Of a DNA stretch of 64,000 nucleotides, positions 33,277 to 40,879 are shown in pieces (the stretch's first letter is position 1; every line of letters starts with the position of its first letter). Where the stretch lies: contig NC_005363.1 in NCBI RefSeq assembly GCF_000196175.1, forward strand, positions 1,426,001-1,490,000, given 5' to 3'. Below the pieces are notes generated by a model, which saw only the letters and a program-made list of their open reading frames with translations, was not told where the DNA came from and did no database searches. The DNA is from Bdellovibrio bacteriovorus HD100. GTDB lineage: Bacteria; Bdellovibrionota; Bdellovibrionia; Bdellovibrionales; Bdellovibrionaceae. The position numbers were made by a program, and so were the translations under genes.

Positions 33277-34434
33277 TCAAAACTCGAAACCAATGCCCGG
33301 AGGAAGAGAAAATATTTTTGAGAAGATCCAGATTTTTACCGGCGTAAGGTTGCTGGTGGTTTCAAATCTGACAGAGGCCGGTTGCCCAGTTCCTGAATAG
33401 GAGATCAGAAGGTCATGGGAAGAGATGGCCGTCCAACCGTTTTTGTCTTCGGGTTCCCGGACCAAATATGAAAGTCTGACAGTCTTTTCTTTGCTGATCA
33501 GGTGAAAGGTTTGATATCCAAGCAGTAATTCCGGGCCTGGAAGCTCAAAGAAAAACGAAGATTCACCATTTTTGATGATAACGGTCTTCTTGTCTGCGCT
33601 TAACCCCAGAGAGCATTTTTGCTCCTGCCCAAGATTGCTTTCCAGATCTTTGGCGACACAGCTTTCCTCGATGGATTTGTCTTGGATCCAGAAGATCAGA
33701 CTTTTGACATCCTTGGCTCCATTTTCTTCTAGAGGAATTGTTCGTAGAGCTGAACCCACGACGCGTTCATCAAATCCAAGACCGATGAGATGCACTAACA
33801 GGTCATCGGAGGACTTGCCTGAACTGGCATCCATCAGCAGGTGTGTGGCTTCGCGGATTTTTGGATAGTCGGTCGCAGTCAGAATGGAATACAGCGATTT
33901 TGGCTTTACGGCAACTGCGAGGGCTTTGGACTGCACATACAGGTCCATGACCGTTTCGTGGAAAATCAGATAGGCTTGCGTTTCGGGGGACAGGGTGTTG
34001 AAGGCGCTGCTGTCGATCCAGATTTCACCCTCTGTTTGAAAGGCATACTGTTCATAATCCTTTGTTCGGAATTCCATCCCCATTTTTTCGGCGTCAATGC
34101 GGTTCAGTTTTTGGGGCACAAAAATCCAGGTTTTCTTTTGCAATACTTTGAGCAACGCCGGGTTGAATGACGACGTTCTTTCCAGAACTTTGCTGATTTC
34201 TGTTTTCCAAACATCCAGGGACTCAAGTTTGGTGATGTACTGCTCATACATTTTGGAGTTAAATCCGGTGCCGCCACCGCCGTCGCCGGTGTTTCCGCCG
34301 CCGCCACTGGTTTCCGTGGGACCGGTGCTGGTGTGATCACTGGGTTGACAGGCGACGATAAACGTCATGAAGCCGCACAGAAGCCAGGGCATAAGGCGCA
34401 AATAGAATCTGTTTCGCGATGCTGGCACTGTCAT
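33277..34434 (-). CDS. Lipoprotein of unknown function
   Basis: 385 residues from ATG 34434 (AGGAG six bases before), giving a lipoprotein signal MPWLLCGFMTFIVAC with the lipobox cysteine, then a flexible Gly/Thr/Ser-rich linker of about 30 residues with GGGG runs and no recognised domain after it. A longer frame to 34530 lacks an RBS. Transcribed divergently from the TIGR02147 regulator, whose promoter region carries the TTTACC-N4-GTAAAC dyad, so it may be regulated with it. Confidence 0.7.
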   Translation of the reverse strand: MTVPASRNRFYLRLMPWLLCGFMTFIVACQPSDHTSTGPTETSGGGGNTGDGGGGTGFNSKMYEQYITKLESLDVWKTEISKVLERTSSFNPALLKVLQKKTWIFVPQKLNRIDAEKMGMEFRTKDYEQYAFQTEGEIWIDSSAFNTLSPETQAYLIFHETVMDLYVQSKALAVAVKPKSLYSILTATDYPKIREATHLLMDASSGKSSDDLLVHLIGLGFDERVVGSALRTIPLEENGAKDVKSLIFWIQDKSIEESCVAKDLESNLGQEQKCSLGLSADKKTVIIKNGESSFFFELPGPELLLGYQTFHLISKEKTVRLSYLVREPEDKNGWTAISSHDLLISYSGTGQPASVRFETTSNLTPVKIWIFSKIFSLPPGIGFEF

Positions 34435-34557
34435 ATTCGACTCCTGACAACCTGAAGAGCAAGCGGCATGCCTCGCCGTTGGTCGCGAAATCTCATTGTG
34501 AGACAGGAGTAAGGTCTTGATTTTTGACACGGAAATCGAAAAACAGGTCGGGCTTTG

Positions 34558-34573
34558 TTTACCGTTAGTAAAC
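34558..34573. promoter_or_regulatory. Dyad TTTACC-N4-GTAAAC, copy 1 (between divergent genes)
   Basis: TTTACCGTTAGTAAAC, an inverted repeat with a 4-base centre, lies 8 bases before the TIGR02147 regulator ATG and within the divergent region of the lipoprotein gene. A second copy lies before the downstream exported-protein operon. Confidence 0.5.
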
Positions 34574-34580
34574 TGGGGGC

Positions 34581-35387
34581 ATGCTGGATATTTATAATTA
34601 CGATGACTACAGGCTGTTCTTTAAGGATGTACTTCAATCACAAGAGCGGACTGACAAGAAGTACCGCGGAAGATTGGTTGAAGCGATGCGAATCAGCACC
34701 TCGTTGTTTTCGCAGATTCTGAAAGGTGAAAAAAATCTTTCTTCTGAACAGGGCTTGGAGGCCGCAGCCTTCTTTGGTTTTGGTGACAAAGAAACGGATG
34801 TCTTTATGCTGATGATCGAGCTGGGGCGGGCGGGTTCCGTCAAGCTGCAGGCGCGGCTTAAAGACAAGATCCAGATCCTGCAGTCCGAAGCCAAGTCCAT
34901 CAGTGCCCGGGTTCCCAAGGATGTTGTCCTGAGTGATGTCGACAAAGCCACCTACTATTCCTCCTGGCTCTATACTGGTGTCAGGAATCTGCTGCCAACC
35001 CCCGCAGGAAAGGAACTGAAAACCATCGCTGAAAAACTGGGTGTGCCTTTGGAAAAAGTGGACACGGCCATTCAGTTTCTGATTGAAGTGGGCCTGTGCG
35101 AAAGAAAGAATGGACAGCTTTATTACAAGCAGGGGTTCACTCATCTTGATTCAACCCATCCGATGATTCTAAGGCATCACCAGAACTGGCGTCAGCGAGC
35201 CATTGCAAAGATGGATTTTTACAAAGACCCCCATGTCCATTATACAAGTCCCATGTCTTTGTCCGCCGAAGGGGCTCAGAAGATCCGGGATTATCTTCGC
35301 GCAAACATTAAGGAAATCATCAACTTGTCGCGCGAGGGAAACCCTGAGATCGGCTATTGCCTTAATATAGACTGGTACGAATACTGA
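34581..35387 (+). CDS. TIGR02147-family regulator (DUF4423)
   Basis: 268 residues with the TIGR02147 layout: N-terminal HTH-like helices starting MLDIYNYDDYRLFFKDVL, RISTSLFSQILKGEKNLSSEQG, then the C-terminal DUF4423 domain. Members are abundant in Bdellovibrio and Fibrobacter and are thought to be transcription factors. Preceded by a TTTACC-N4-GTAAAC dyad and followed two bases after its stop by a second copy, so autoregulation plus control of the exported-protein operon is likely. No SD is obvious; the AT-rich dyad may overlap translation signals. Confidence 0.75.
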   Translation: MLDIYNYDDYRLFFKDVLQSQERTDKKYRGRLVEAMRISTSLFSQILKGEKNLSSEQGLEAAAFFGFGDKETDVFMLMIELGRAGSVKLQARLKDKIQILQSEAKSISARVPKDVVLSDVDKATYYSSWLYTGVRNLLPTPAGKELKTIAEKLGVPLEKVDTAIQFLIEVGLCERKNGQLYYKQGFTHLDSTHPMILRHHQNWRQRAIAKMDFYKDPHVHYTSPMSLSAEGAQKIRDYLRANIKEIINLSREGNPEIGYCLNIDWYEY

Positions 35388-35388
35388 C

Positions 35389-35404
35389 TTTACCAAAAGT
35401 AAAC
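35389..35404. promoter_or_regulatory. Dyad TTTACC-N4-GTAAAC, copy 2 (before exported-protein operon)
   Basis: TTTACCAAAAGTAAAC shares 13 of 16 bases with copy 1 at 34558, including both half-sites. It lies 96 bases before the first exported-protein gene. Confidence 0.5.
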
Positions 35405-35467
35405 TGAAACCCGGCCGTTTTAACCAACCGGACTTCGCGGAATTTTTCTGGATTCTGTAAAAAGCTT

Positions 35468-35491
35468 CTCATGCGAACTGAATCGTATGAG
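35468..35491 (+). promoter_or_regulatory. Hairpin next to the RBS of the poly-glycine gene
   Basis: CTCATGCGA (35468-35476) pairs with TCGTATGAG (35483-35491) with one G-U pair; its 3' arm runs into the AGGAG Shine-Dalgarno (35490-35494) for ATG 35500. Confidence 0.35.
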
Positions 35492-35499
35492 GAGTTTTT

Positions 35500-36777
35500 A
35501 TGAATTTTTCCAAATGGATCTTCGTGTTGTTGGTTCTGACTCAGGTGCAAGCCCATGCGGGCCCGTTGTGTCTGAATGACCGGTACCAATCGAAATGGAC
35601 GGCGGAAACACTCTCTGAACAAATGTCATCCCTGCAGGAACGCGCGAAGGCAGCAAAGCCCTTGTGGGTTCGCCTTCAAGGCGAGGATCTTCTGATTAAA
35701 GAAGACACACTTCTGGTGCTGCCTGAAAACCCATCTCAGGCTCTGGCGCGAATTGGCAAACTGGCCGTCCGAAACAATGCCATGATTTTCTATGCTCAAA
35801 ATACACGCCTGGTTGTTGCCGAGGTGATGAAATCCTCTCGAGTGCAATTCCTGGATGTGGCGGCGCTGAATCTTTCAGCTGCAATAGATCACACGCAGCA
35901 GGTCGTTTCTTTGACAGAACTAAAAAACAATCCCGATCAGGCTGAACCGTTCAAAAGTTGCACCCTGATGTCCTGTGTAGGTGTTGCCGCGGCCAACGGA
36001 AGTCATGGCGGCGCAGGCGGCAATGGCCGTGATGCTGGCGGCAAAATCAAATGGGGTATTCCACAGTCCACACCCAGTTCTGATGGCGGCGCAGGGGCTT
36101 CTGGCGGTGCCGGCGCGAATGGCCGTAACGGTGACAATGGCGCGCCCGGGGTTGCGGGGTTGAACGCGCACAAACTTTTCATGCAGTTTGAAAGTGTGGA
36201 TCTGTGTAGTGGGGTGGAAATTGTCGCCAGTGGAGGTGCGGGGCTCAAGGGGCTGAAAGGTCTGAATGCTCAGGACGCCGGACAAGGTGGCAATGGTGGC
36301 AAGGGCGGCCGTGGTGGCGGTGCCAAGTGGGATCGTAAAGCCAGCCGAGGTGGCCGTGGGGGCAATGGGGGTGCTGGTGGCAACGGAGGCAACGGTGGAT
36401 TTGGCGGTGATGGCGGCAAAGGCGGTGACGGCGGTCTGGTGGTCGTCGTGGTGAAGCCGCGATTCCTGGATATGGTGAAAGTAAACGACAATATCAATGT
36501 TCTGGTTGCCGGTGGCAAAGGCGGACCGGGTGGAGCCAAGGGGCTTGCGGGCAAAGGTGGCCGCGGTGGTCATGGTGGAGAAGGTGGTAACGGCGGTGAC
36601 GGTTCTGTCTTCAGTCATGGCGGCAGCTCAGGACTTGCCGGAAGTGCGGGAACGCAAGGTCAGGACGGCAAGGATGGGCAGGAGGGCCGTCCCGGTGTAG
36701 AGGGCCGCGAGGGCCTTGTGACCAAAGCGGAGATTTATATTTCCAATGATGTCTCCATTGAGAGCTTTCAATTTTAG
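35500..36777 (+). CDS. Exported poly-glycine/collagen-like protein 1
   Basis: 425 residues. Signal peptide (WIFVLLVLTQVQAHA), an N-terminal domain with cysteines (about 25-165), then long GGX/GNGG tracts (about 165-390) broken by a beta-like segment, and a C-terminal true collagen-like run of G-X-Y triplets (about eight in GTQGQDGKDGQEGRPGVEG). Such tracts can form poly-glycine-II or collagen triple helices; a comparable fold is known in phage tail-tip adhesins. Likely surface-exposed. First of three exported-protein genes; SD GGAG before ATG. Confidence 0.75.
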   Translation: MNFSKWIFVLLVLTQVQAHAGPLCLNDRYQSKWTAETLSEQMSSLQERAKAAKPLWVRLQGEDLLIKEDTLLVLPENPSQALARIGKLAVRNNAMIFYAQNTRLVVAEVMKSSRVQFLDVAALNLSAAIDHTQQVVSLTELKNNPDQAEPFKSCTLMSCVGVAAANGSHGGAGGNGRDAGGKIKWGIPQSTPSSDGGAGASGGAGANGRNGDNGAPGVAGLNAHKLFMQFESVDLCSGVEIVASGGAGLKGLKGLNAQDAGQGGNGGKGGRGGGAKWDRKASRGGRGGNGGAGGNGGNGGFGGDGGKGGDGGLVVVVVKPRFLDMVKVNDNINVLVAGGKGGPGGAKGLAGKGGRGGHGGEGGNGGDGSVFSHGGSSGLAGSAGTQGQDGKDGQEGRPGVEGREGLVTKAEIYISNDVSIESFQF

Positions 36778-36791
36778 TAAGGAGAATGACC

Positions 36792-38009
36792 ATGAAAAAC
36801 GTGTTTAAAAAACTGATCCCTTTGGCTGCGGCTGTGACTTTTGCTGACCCTGCATGGGCCCGGATTCTGGGGGATCCCTCAGAAAGAACCCGCGTGCTGC
36901 TTGAAGAACAACAATTTCTTTGCAGTCAGAATGAAACTCTTGTGATTAACGGCGACGTGGAAATCACGCGCAAGAACGAGGACCTGCGCAATGCACCTCT
37001 GAATGTTGATTTGATCTGCAAACGGATTGAATTCAAAAACGGGGGGAGAATTCTGACGCAATCCAATTTGCAGATTGTAGCTGACTCTGTTGAAGGCTTT
37101 ATGAATGTGGAAAGCATTCGCGGGGTGAAAGGACAGCAGGGTGAATTCGCCTCTGCGGTACTGGAAATTGCCAACACCGGTTCTGCCGGAGCCCGCGGTG
37201 GCAATGGCAGGGGCGGCAGCCTGACAGATTCTCCAGAGGACGGAGGCCGAGGCCAGCATGGCTACAATGGTATGGATGGCCGGGACGGCAACAATGGCGC
37301 TCCGGGTGAACCTGGGGTTCATGCTTCTGACATCGTTGTGAAAATCAACAGAATCCAAGGGACGGTTGGCTTCCGCATCCGCGCAGTTGGGGGCGAAGGC
37401 GGCACGGGCGGTAAGGGTGGCAGAGGGCAACAAGGTGGTAACGGGGGCGTCGGTGGGGACGGCGGTCGTGGTGGGAACCAAAAGTACGCTATTTGGAATC
37501 GCTCTGGCGATGGCGGAGACGGTGGTGATGGAGGACACGGCGGCAACGGCGGTAATGGCGGCGCTGGTGGTGACGGAGGACGAGGTGGCAACGGCGGTAA
37601 GATCGCTTTGTATGTGGCCGAGGTCTTCAACACGCTGGAACTGACCGGGGATGAGTTCGACAACCGCGGAGGCCCCGGAGGTCAGCCAGGTATGGGCGGC
37701 GAAGGTGGTGTTGGTGGCAAAGGGGGCGAAGGTGGTAAGGGCGGATCTTCTGGGACGGCTCTGGTGACCTCAAGTTGTGATGTCCCTCCGTGTGAAGGTG
37801 ATAACGGTCGCCATGGTAAAAAAGGTCTTGATGGCAAGCCGGGACTGGCCGGTCCGCAAGGGCGTCTGGGGCAGGACGGTTTGGCCGGTGTTAAAATTCT
37901 GGATCCGAAATTTAAATTTGTGAAGTCGGTTCCTGACGACTATTTCGACAAGCTGCCCGAGCTGGGAACAGAAAAGAATTTGAAAATACTCAGAATGAAA
38001 CTTCCTTAA
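36792..38009 (+). CDS. Exported poly-glycine/collagen-like protein 2
   Basis: 405 residues from ATG 36792 (AAGGAG nine bases upstream; the ATG two codons earlier is too close). Signal peptide (FKKLIPLAAAVTFADPAWA), N-terminal cysteine-containing region (about 25-130), dense GGX tracts (about 130-330), and a C-terminal collagen-like run (GKKGLDGKPGLAGPQGRLG) of about ten triplets. Paralogous in layout to the preceding protein, so a tandem duplication. They probably assemble together on the outer surface. A MACPF-like gene follows after 16 bases. Confidence 0.75.
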   Translation: MKNVFKKLIPLAAAVTFADPAWARILGDPSERTRVLLEEQQFLCSQNETLVINGDVEITRKNEDLRNAPLNVDLICKRIEFKNGGRILTQSNLQIVADSVEGFMNVESIRGVKGQQGEFASAVLEIANTGSAGARGGNGRGGSLTDSPEDGGRGQHGYNGMDGRDGNNGAPGEPGVHASDIVVKINRIQGTVGFRIRAVGGEGGTGGKGGRGQQGGNGGVGGDGGRGGNQKYAIWNRSGDGGDGGDGGHGGNGGNGGAGGDGGRGGNGGKIALYVAEVFNTLELTGDEFDNRGGPGGQPGMGGEGGVGGKGGEGGKGGSSGTALVTSSCDVPPCEGDNGRHGKKGLDGKPGLAGPQGRLGQDGLAGVKILDPKFKFVKSVPDDYFDKLPELGTEKNLKILRMKLP

Positions 38010-38025
38010 GAGCAGGGACAAAGTT

Positions 38026-39600
38026 ATGAAAAAAATTATTTTGGCAATGTTGTTGTTATCGTTGCAGACGTATGCGCAGACAATCAGTTACAGCGAAAAC
38101 AGTTCTTTGAGGCTCGGGGCGGGGGTGGACTTGGACCACCCCGACAAGGCCAAGGCCAATTGTGTTAAAAGTTCTGATCGTGAATGGCTGGATGGGAACA
38201 CTCCCGTTTCAACAACGTTTGACCTAAGCATGATTGAGACCTCCAGCGAGCTGGAAAGAAAAATGAATTTTGATGTTCAGTTGAATGCGGCGGGCACAAT
38301 CAAGGCCGTGAATTTTGACAGTCAGAATTACTACCGGGTGATTCATAAGTTTCTGGAAAGCAAGAACAGCCTGAATTTTGCGCTGACGGCGGAATTTTCC
38401 TACGGTCGCAAAGGCCTGACAGAAGAGTCCCTGAAGCCCGAGTATCAGACCCTGCTGGACAACGGCAAGTGGCAGGAAGTTTTGAGAAGATGCGGAACGC
38501 ACTTTGTTTCAGAGGAGATTCACCGATCCAAAGTGGTCGTTTTGATTCATGTGAAGAATTCCCGCACCGAAGACATCAAGGAACAGATTCTGGATCTGAA
38601 GAACAAACTGAAAGTTCCCAAGCTGAATTTCGGCGGGGATTTGAATGTTCAGTACAAAGAATTCATCCGCAAGCTGGATAAGATTGGTTCGGTGGAGGTG
38701 AAAGTGGTTTCTGTCGGCGGGCAGGGCGCAGATGCGTTGGGTGTCTTTGCCAATGAAATTGTGGTGGATGATCTGCAAAGCATAAAAAACGCCGCAGAAA
38801 AGTACTTTAGAAGCTTTACGATCGAGAATTCCCCGGTGTTCGCCTATGTGGTAAAACCGTTGGATATTTTCGAGGGCGCTGAAAACATCCGTCCAAGACA
38901 GAAAAAGTGGCAGCACTTGAAATTACTGGCTGACTGGATTTTTGAGCACGAGGAACTGCTGGCAGAAATCAAAGGTATGCAAGCCCGGGTCAGCAAAGCC
39001 CTTTATGCCGTGTACTTTGAACCAAAGTCGATGGCTCTGGAGACCAGGATCAACGAGATTCGCTCTCGGGCTGAAGAGTGTCTGGACCGCTACAACTGTG
39101 ACAACCTTCCGGCCGTGGCACCATTTCCGGTTCATGTCCCATCCCGCGCCGTCAGTGCGGTTTCATTGAACACGCAGTGTGGGTATCTGCCGGTAAGAAA
39201 TTCCAACATGCAGATTCTAAGTGATGTCCGCGTAGGACTTGATGTGGATGTGATGTATGCCAAGGACATTGAAAATATCGAATTGTTCCGTCTGGATCAA
39301 AACGGCGAATTCCAGAATGCAAACTATGGACAGAATGAAGAACTGACGATGGCAAACAATATTCTGGAATCCGAAGTGGGCCGCATCAGAAGATATCAGT
39401 CGGTGAACGAGTTTTCCGCCAACCACGTGCTTTCAGACAGCGCCATCCTGTCAGCACAAGACAGCGTGCTAAAGGCCCAGGAAATCTTCAACGCCGCCTT
39501 TAATTCAATCTACATCATGAAGATCCGATTTAAACAGGGTCAGGACTTAACCCAGATTCTGGGGACCCCTCCGATGAAAAACTGCTCGATCACAAGATAA
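38026..39600 (+). CDS. Exported protein with MACPF-like signature
   Basis: 524 residues with a signal peptide (MKKIILAMLLLSLQTYA). At residues 149-168 it reads W-QEVLRR-C-GTHF-VSEEIH-RS, matching the MACPF consensus (Y/W)-x6-(F/Y)-GT-H-(F/Y)-x6-GG except for C for Phe/Tyr and RS for GG. Upstream is the strand-like FALTAEFSYGRKG expected in the fold. The N-terminal and C-terminal parts contain cysteine pairs (CLDRYNCDN). MACPF proteins make pores in target membranes. Co-transcribed with two poly-glycine proteins, suggesting an adhesion-plus-pore complex, but the GG loss means pore formation is unproven. Confidence 0.55.
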   Translation: MKKIILAMLLLSLQTYAQTISYSENSSLRLGAGVDLDHPDKAKANCVKSSDREWLDGNTPVSTTFDLSMIETSSELERKMNFDVQLNAAGTIKAVNFDSQNYYRVIHKFLESKNSLNFALTAEFSYGRKGLTEESLKPEYQTLLDNGKWQEVLRRCGTHFVSEEIHRSKVVVLIHVKNSRTEDIKEQILDLKNKLKVPKLNFGGDLNVQYKEFIRKLDKIGSVEVKVVSVGGQGADALGVFANEIVVDDLQSIKNAAEKYFRSFTIENSPVFAYVVKPLDIFEGAENIRPRQKKWQHLKLLADWIFEHEELLAEIKGMQARVSKALYAVYFEPKSMALETRINEIRSRAEECLDRYNCDNLPAVAPFPVHVPSRAVSAVSLNTQCGYLPVRNSNMQILSDVRVGLDVDVMYAKDIENIELFRLDQNGEFQNANYGQNEELTMANNILESEVGRIRRYQSVNEFSANHVLSDSAILSAQDSVLKAQEIFNAAFNSIYIMKIRFKQGQDLTQILGTPPMKNCSITR

Positions 39601-39623
39601 CAGTGGATCGCAACTTAATCCAA

Positions 39624-39643
39624 TGCGGGGGCGCGCCCCCGCA
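39624..39643. other. 20-bp perfect GC palindrome
   Basis: TGCGGGGGCG followed by its exact complement CGCCCCCGCA, just after the MACPF-like gene. No U-run follows, so more likely a pausing or processing site than a classical terminator. Confidence 0.4.
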
Positions 39644-39667
39644 CCGCAAACCGAGAGCCCCAGCTAC

Positions 39668-39782
39668 CCAAATCTTCCCCTTTAAATTCAAGTTCCACAG
39701 CGAAGCAAAACGCCAGTGCGAAGCCAGAAAATAAATAACAAGAGCGAGGATGTGTCCGAAGAATTTAAAGGGGAAGATTTGG
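39668..39782. repeat. 22-bp perfect inverted repeat ending at the tRNA-Leu CCA
   Basis: Left arm 39668-39689 and right arm 39761-39782 are exact reverse complements, separated by 71 bases. The right arm's outer three bases are the CCA end of tRNA-Leu, so the repeat abuts the mature tRNA 3' end. Confidence 0.7.
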
Positions 39783-39861
39783 TGCGGGTGGAGGGACTTG
39801 AACCCCCATGCTTTCGCGGGAGATTTTGAGTCTCCTGTGTCTACCATTTCACCACACCCGC
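39780..39861 (-). tRNA. tRNA-Leu (anticodon CAA), CCA encoded
   Basis: Read on the minus strand: acceptor GCGGGTG pairs CACCCGC, anticodon stem GGAGA/TCTCC with loop CTCAAAA giving anticodon CAA (reads UUG), class II variable arm with GC-GAAA-GC, T arm GGTTCAAGT, discriminator A and encoded CCA. Length (82) is slightly short for Leu but the fold is complete. It faces the exported-protein operon; the trypsin-like gene terminator lies just beyond. Confidence 0.9.
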
Positions 39862-39979: not shown

Positions 39980-40879
39980 TTAAAGCTTATTGATTTGATC
40001 GTTGATCCAATCCAGGTGTTCGCGGACGTCCGTGAACAGGGCAACGCCGTGGCAGACGCGCACTTTCTTTTCATCGGTGGCGCGGTTGTCGACCCCCATG
40101 GAGGTGATACCCACCAGGGTCAGGTCAGAACCCACTTGATTATAAAGCGGACCGCCGGAGTCACCCGTGCAAACGCCGGTATTGGCCTGGTCCACGATGA
40201 TGGTTTTTGGAACTGAAACTGACTTTCCAACCAAGGCCAGATAAAAGCTGGTGCCCAGAACATTGGACGAAGGCGTGGAGGTGAAACGCAAAGTTCCAGA
40301 GTCTTCGCCTTTTTCTGTGGTGGTTCCATAGCCCGTCATAATCAGTCGGTCTGTAGGTGCCACGCTGTAGGATTTTTGTGGCAGTTCACGGATTTTGTAG
40401 CCTTCAGGGATGCTGCCAGAGAATTTCAGCACGGCCAGATCTGTCGAGGCGTTGTTGAAGTCTGTTTTGTTCCAATAAGAGTAAGCATCAGGAACCGCCG
40501 TATCAGTCACGAGACGCAAAGTTCTTTTCGGAGCAGAAGAAACACAGCCCACGTTATTGGAAAAAGCGATGGCCGTTTTGCCGCCCCAGCTGGAAATACA
40601 GTGAGCCGCGGTCAGAACTTTGTTATTTGCAACCAGGGTTCCGGTGCAGATGCTGGTCTCTTCTTTATAATTCATATGAATGACCATGACGGTGGAAGAG
40701 CTCAACTCATTCCCCGAAGCCAGGGTTTGTCCATTCACGATACCAAAGGATTTTCCGGATACTTCACAGTTCGAAGGTTCGACTTTAAGATCGCTGCCAC
40801 CGCCAGAGCCGCCGCAGGCACTAAGAAGAGATAGAGACAGAAGGACAGCAGAAGAACGAAGAAATAGAGCAGGGGACAT
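39980..40879 (-). CDS. Trypsin-like serine protease lipoprotein
   Basis: 299 residues. Lipoprotein signal (LLSLSLLSACGGSGG) with a Gly/Ser spacer, then a chymotrypsin-fold domain with catalytic His in LTAAHCIS, Asp in STDLAVLKFS and Ser in CTGDSGGPLYN. Likely attached to an outer-membrane face and used in prey protein degradation. The disulfide cysteines around the active site (AHC, VCTGDSGG) are present. SD AAGGAG before ATG. Confidence 0.92.
   Translation of the reverse strand: MSPALFLRSSAVLLSLSLLSACGGSGGGSDLKVEPSNCEVSGKSFGIVNGQTLASGNELSSSTVMVIHMNYKEETSICTGTLVANNKVLTAAHCISSWGGKTAIAFSNNVGCVSSAPKRTLRLVTDTAVPDAYSYWNKTDFNNASTDLAVLKFSGSIPEGYKIRELPQKSYSVAPTDRLIMTGYGTTTEKGEDSGTLRFTSTPSSNVLGTSFYLALVGKSVSVPKTIIVDQANTGVCTGDSGGPLYNQVGSDLTLVGITSMGVDNRATDEKKVRVCHGVALFTDVREHLDWINDQINKL

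Follow-up and report, generated by a model that had tools for sequence, protein, structure and literature searches.

The 64,000-nucleotide stretch of Bdellovibrio bacteriovorus HD100 analysed here (contig NC_005363.1, positions 1,426,001 to 1,490,000; hereafter the window, whose coordinates are used throughout) was found to encode, at 38026–39600 on the + strand, an exported protein of 524 amino acids that is supported, by its predicted structure, as a new branch of the MACPF/CDC/SNTX superfamily; the assignment draws on the reading frame, profile searches, a structure model and a fold search. The gene follows those of two glycine-rich proteins, GlyA and GlyB, and it is considered fairly probable that the MACPF protein is secreted and refolds its helix clusters on a target membrane, with the glycine-rich partners contributing recognition or a scaffold. 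The frame is open from an ATG start and represents a genuine gene on which purifying selection acts, with dN and dS values of 0.029 and 0.52, respectively (dN/dS ~0.06), against a 94% identical relative. Its locus tag in HD100 is probably Bd1540, because two other genes of the window, PLD at 12.2 kb and trypsin at 40 kb, fit Bd1516 and Bd1541 of PMC11003981; the three genes from GlyA to MACPF would then be Bd1538–Bd1540. A Sec-type signal peptide without a lipobox was read by eye at residues 1–17 (38026–38076, + strand; MKKIILAMLLLSLQTYA-Q), and Cys46 and Cys156, which are nearly invariant in the family alignment, may form a disulfide in the exported protein.

The original prediction had placed a MACPF signature at residues 149–168 (38470–38529, + strand), and the sequence and alignment there read exactly so: WQEVLRRCGTHFVSEEIHRS, or W-x6-C-GTHF-x6-RS. 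Compared with the reference signature, (Y/W)-x6-(F/Y)-GTH(F/Y)-x6-GG, the W, the GTHF and the spacing agree, C stands in place of F/Y and the GG is replaced by RS. From its composition, the protein would be expected to contain the pattern [WY]x6xGTH[FY] about 4e-5 times, and it holds the only match in the ~20,400 amino acids of non-overlapping reading frames of the window. The C before GT was found in every relative having residues at that position, whereas the GG, whose absence had been entered as a caveat, was recovered at the correct spacing in 11 of 44 relatives, all of them deep, and is absent from the lineage of the window protein. The alignment is read as a loss of the GG in this lineage, although, the tree being unrooted, the other clade may instead have gained it. 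The glycine pair at residues 230–231, after the fourth strand (38713–38718, + strand), was retained in the window protein, and G231 is nearly invariant among 45 relatives; in CDCs, the glycine pair at this place is required for leaving the prepore state (PMC7527733).

Homology to MACPF proteins was evident from the family and not from the single sequence. The window protein scored 14.7 bits against Pfam MACPF (PF01823) over residues 111–197, below the gathering cut-off of 21.5, and this was the sole MACPF match in its genome with Pfam; its relative L053 passed the cut-off with 25.0 bits. Searches with the window protein alone (phmmer against PDB, Pfam and NCBIfam) gave no significant MACPF match, significance being reached only by profiles of the relatives. 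These relatives comprise three at 85–94% identity and five more, of the same order or genus, at ~20% identity, and a profile search extended the family to 52 of the 369 genomes sampled from the phylum. Profiles of 7 and 45 sequences were compared with all PDB sequences. The top three matches of the smaller one were Mpf2Ba1 (two sequences) and Aegerolysin-L (Aeg-L), with E values of ~0.002, while the larger one returned Aeg-L (3.3e-10), a perforating component of Alternaria (PMC13341504), followed by stonustoxin beta (1.9e-5) and Mpf2Ba1 (1.2e-4), with no credible PDB match beyond these three. In the Pfam scan, the window protein showed no Thiol_cytolysin match (one relative reached 13 bits, the cut-off being 25) and neither the thioredoxin nor the PRY-SPRY domain of stonustoxin. 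Matches to gpUL132, tRNA-synt_2e and MAT were below cut-off and were taken as chance.

An AlphaFold2 model built on the sequences of 45 native relatives reached a pLDDT of 74 and a pTM of 0.62, with pLDDT values of 90–95 over much of residues 121–170; an earlier model from 9 sequences (pLDDT 60) was discarded. DSSP assigned a strand at 62–69, helices at 73–109, a strand at 115–132, helices at 138–156, a strand at 159–177, helices at 184–220 and a strand at 222–230, and this modelled order of strands and helix clusters is that of the MACPF core, placed at residues 17–285 (38074–38880, + strand; 16–317 in the structure alignment). The bent sheet and helix clusters characteristic of MACPF/CDC folds are thus both present in the model. 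The pore-forming fold claimed by the original prediction stands as a MACPF-like fold that is predicted and not solved, and is supported because the PDB profile searches and the AlphaFold2 fold comparison agree independently. Model and alignment place the first helix cluster (CH1/TMH1 position) at residues 73–109 (38242–38352, + strand) and the second (CH2/TMH2 position) at residues 184–220 (38575–38685, + strand), and amphipathic beta patterns were found in both (KMNFDVQLNAA at 79–89 and KLNFGGDLNVQ at 199–209, respectively). The alternating polar/apolar pattern is the strongest of the core in these two regions, exceeding shuffled sequences in 91% and 93% of relatives, as would be expected of inserting hairpins. 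Beyond the core, model, profile and structure alignment place two long helices at residues 295–355 (38908–39090, + strand), at the position of the helical (FAT-like) domain of stonustoxin, and the model ends in a beta domain at residues 376–513 (39151–39564, + strand), of low confidence and a candidate targeting domain. All 50 of the 50 matches listed by Foldseek against PDB were MACPF/CDC proteins. The best VIA-align match was stonustoxin alpha (Z 11.0, 256 residues aligned, root-mean-square deviation 4.7), followed by the CDC-like protein CDCL, Aeg-L, MPEG1 and perfringolysin O (PFO). The residues YGR (126–128) are not claimed as a CDC motif, since they lie on model strand 2, whereas that of PFO extends over strands 2 and 3 (PMC7527733).

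Among known systems, stonustoxin alpha/beta (SNTX, PDB 4wvm) gave the best fold match, over model residues 17–370, and the second-best profile match, and in both proteins the MACPF core is followed by a helical domain; of the MACPF, helical, thioredoxin and PRY-SPRY parts of stonustoxin, however, only the first two are matched, and the toxin is an alpha/beta heterodimer, whereas here a single bacterial MACPF chain is accompanied by two glycine-rich partners. Aegerolysin-L of Alternaria (PDB 9uj0; Z 9.5) was the best profile match and, like pleurotolysin B, is a MACPF component acting together with a partner, but these systems are fungal with a small aegerolysin as partner, unlike the two 400-residue GGx-rich proteins found here in a bacterium. 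The CDCs and CDC-like proteins (perfringolysin O and the CDCL of E. anophelis) share the core fold (Z 8.6–10.3) and the glycine pair after the fourth strand, but their domain 4 and undecapeptide are not in the window protein. Mpf2Ba1 (PDB 8b6u/8b6v), a bacterial insecticidal MACPF protein, shares the core and has a different C-terminal domain. We know of no glycine-rich partners for either Mpf2Ba1 or the BSAPs of Bacteroides. The BSAPs are antimicrobial MACPF proteins that Gram-negative bacteria direct against other bacteria (PMC7527733, references 4–6), and the window protein is likened to them by this description and not by sequence.

The claim that the MACPF protein is co-encoded with two poly-glycine proteins held across genomes. 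Both partners are exported proteins identified by reading frame and alignment: GlyA (35500–36777, + strand) has 425 amino acids, 21% of them glycine, with GGx runs such as that at residues 284–313, and GlyB (36786–38009, + strand) has 407 amino acids, 24% of them glycine, with runs such as that at 241–270 and a conserved N-terminal non-glycine domain; the runs reach 30 residues in both. The three genes look like one operon, since the gaps are just 8 bp (GlyA–GlyB) and 16 bp (GlyB–MACPF). GlyB was found in 7 of the 369 genomes, in all of which the MACPF gene lies directly downstream, and the MACPF proteins of these seven form one clade (support 99/98). Three distant members of the phylum (genomes L079, L080 and L081) also show the order GlyA–GlyB–MACPF, with MACPF proteins just ~20–30% identical to that of the window. 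Alignments of the non-glycine domain of GlyB scored Z 5.7–10.5 over shuffles, and non-glycine motifs such as KIKWG(I/V)P are common to GlyA of the window and of L079, although the N-terminus of the window GlyA has diverged past detection. These comparisons show that the link of the MACPF protein to two glycine-rich proteins is real, ancient and of single origin. The neighbour in L070 was not counted as a cassette member, being less glycine-rich and without detectable similarity to GlyB. GlyB had no significant sequence match in PDB. By analogy, both proteins are predicted to fold as polyglycine-II type rods or sandwiches: GGx repeats are able to form polyglycine-II sandwiches, through one of which the phage S16 adhesin recognises its host (PMC7550000), and the likeness of GlyA and GlyB to the tail adhesin of this Salmonella phage and to the PE_PGRS proteins (polyglycine II) is one of repeat pattern only.

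In Bdellovibrio, the cassette is part of a 6.4 kb module consisting of a lipoprotein gene, a TIGR02147 regulator gene, GlyA, GlyB and MACPF. The TIGR02147/DUF4423 regulator (34581–35387, + strand; family match) adjoins the cassette in the Bdellovibrio genomes, L079 and L081, and is an orthologue of the cassette-adjoining copy in L079, the two being reciprocal best matches among the paralogues compared; this counters a chance association, which was considered given the 19 DUF4423 matches of the genome. A further TIGR02147 regulator of the same subfamily as the MACPF-linked ones was seen in the genome of the window itself (L103, at G000:C1:630649), away from the only MACPF match of this genome. 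The lipoprotein-like exported protein (33277–34530, − strand), divergently oriented and present in the module of all four Bdellovibrio genomes, had no Pfam or NCBIfam match and is possibly a partner, accessory or immunity gene. Comparison with the sister genome G006 showed that positions 33338–39714 are missing from it, with flanks retained at 83% and ~93–95% identity; the gap is a deletion and not an ancestral empty site, because G006 still carries the lipoprotein gene's 3' end. The same five genes occur among different surrounding genes in L065 and L066. Of the 24 Bdellovibrio genomes sampled, just 4 carry the cassette, and the sister strain has deleted it; it is therefore accessory, and predation in general cannot depend on it. 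A tRNA-Leu (CAA) gene lies ~65 bp beyond the module border (39780–39861, − strand), and the site may therefore be a recombination hot spot. The adjoining secreted trypsin gene (39980–40879, − strand), probably Bd1541, whose product is among the proteins left in dead prey (PMC11003981), was rejected as a module partner, since it stays in the module-less strain and was not seen next to the cassette in L065 or L066.

In the proposed mechanism, the MACPF protein would leave the cytoplasm by Sec and then be taken by a further step across the outer membrane, bind a target membrane and oligomerise there, and the CH1 and CH2 clusters would refold to beta-hairpins and insert, with GlyA and GlyB most likely acting as target-recognition or scaffold parts. 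Separate binding partners are also described for known MACPF systems, such as aegerolysin with PlyB (PMC9174665). Several points weigh against this mechanism: the Pfam score below the cut-off, the missing signature GG, the low whole-chain TM-scores with Foldseek (0.16–0.32), the partly low confidence of CH2 (pLDDT 54–60 at residues 181–200), the absence of the cassette from most Bdellovibrio, the existence of non-lytic superfamily members, with astrotactin among the Foldseek matches, and the fact that the closest solved relatives, Aeg-L, stonustoxin and Mpf2Ba1, act on eukaryotic and not bacterial membranes. Pore formation by the window protein is nevertheless judged rather likely. That its target is bacterial, presumably the envelope of bacterial prey, is rated slightly short of even, and the more specific picture of a three-part secreted machine of predatory bacteria, in which polyglycine-II receptor-binding adhesins would aim a MACPF pore-former at the outer membrane of Gram-negative prey or competitors, is tentative and somewhat unlikely.

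The shared fold is no proof of a pore because the superfamily has non-lytic members, and the protein could instead be an adhesion, matrix or signalling component of a surface complex with the glycine-rich proteins. Astrotactin, the lost GG and the uncertain part of CH2 would fit such a role, but the amphipathic beta pattern of the helix clusters is strong across the family and the glycine that follows the fourth strand, at the pair required in pore-forming CDCs (PMC7527733), hardly varies, and the non-lytic role is considered improbable. A comparably low probability was given to a pore-former directed at eukaryotes, such as protist grazers or other cells of the habitat, as a means of defence and not of predation. 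The membranes attacked by the three closest solved relatives and the accessory standing of the cassette among predators speak for it; however, no lipid-binding partner such as an aegerolysin adjoins the MACPF gene, and the GGx partners are nearer to a bacteria-recognising phage adhesin (PMC7550000) than to a sphingolipid binder. A chance match of the signature in an unrelated exported protein, to which the sub-threshold Pfam score and the missing [FY] and GG would point, is exceedingly improbable, being contradicted by the independent agreement of profile and fold searches and by relatives that restore the missing motif parts, L053 even passing the Pfam cut-off.

The MACPF subfamilies of the phylum differ in their partners and invite comparison. 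At six loci of other subfamilies, the MACPF gene comes after a protease, either directly or at a distance of one gene (L060:400-2541, L074:1191-2591, L071:9163-10554, L069:6732-8111, L072:4243-5634 and L073:3584-4948). According to Pfam, the protease is an S8 subtilase in L060 and a papain-type C1 enzyme in L074, with a homologue of the latter in L071; the neighbours in L069, L072 and L073 are homologous and without a Pfam match, and an S8-like SWATPIA motif occurs in that of L069. The arrangement may point to a pairing of perforin and protease. In a deep clade (L041, L043, L049, L050 and L052), C-terminal Cys-rich repeats (CGVxxYN..., galaxin-like, sub-threshold) occupy the place of the beta domain of the window protein.

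A literature search, with subscription papers and supplements outside its scope, found no paper linking MACPF proteins with Bdellovibrio biology and none describing the MACPF/glycine-rich system of the window. To our knowledge, a glycine-rich partner pair is known from no other MACPF system, and if the glycine-rich proteins are receptor binders, this type of partner would be new among MACPF systems. Breach and killing of prey are still credited to secreted proteins that damage the prey as a consortium, those with an annotation being mostly hydrolases (PMC11003981). The perforin-fold protein that Pfam missed in this model predator is a direct candidate for membrane attack.
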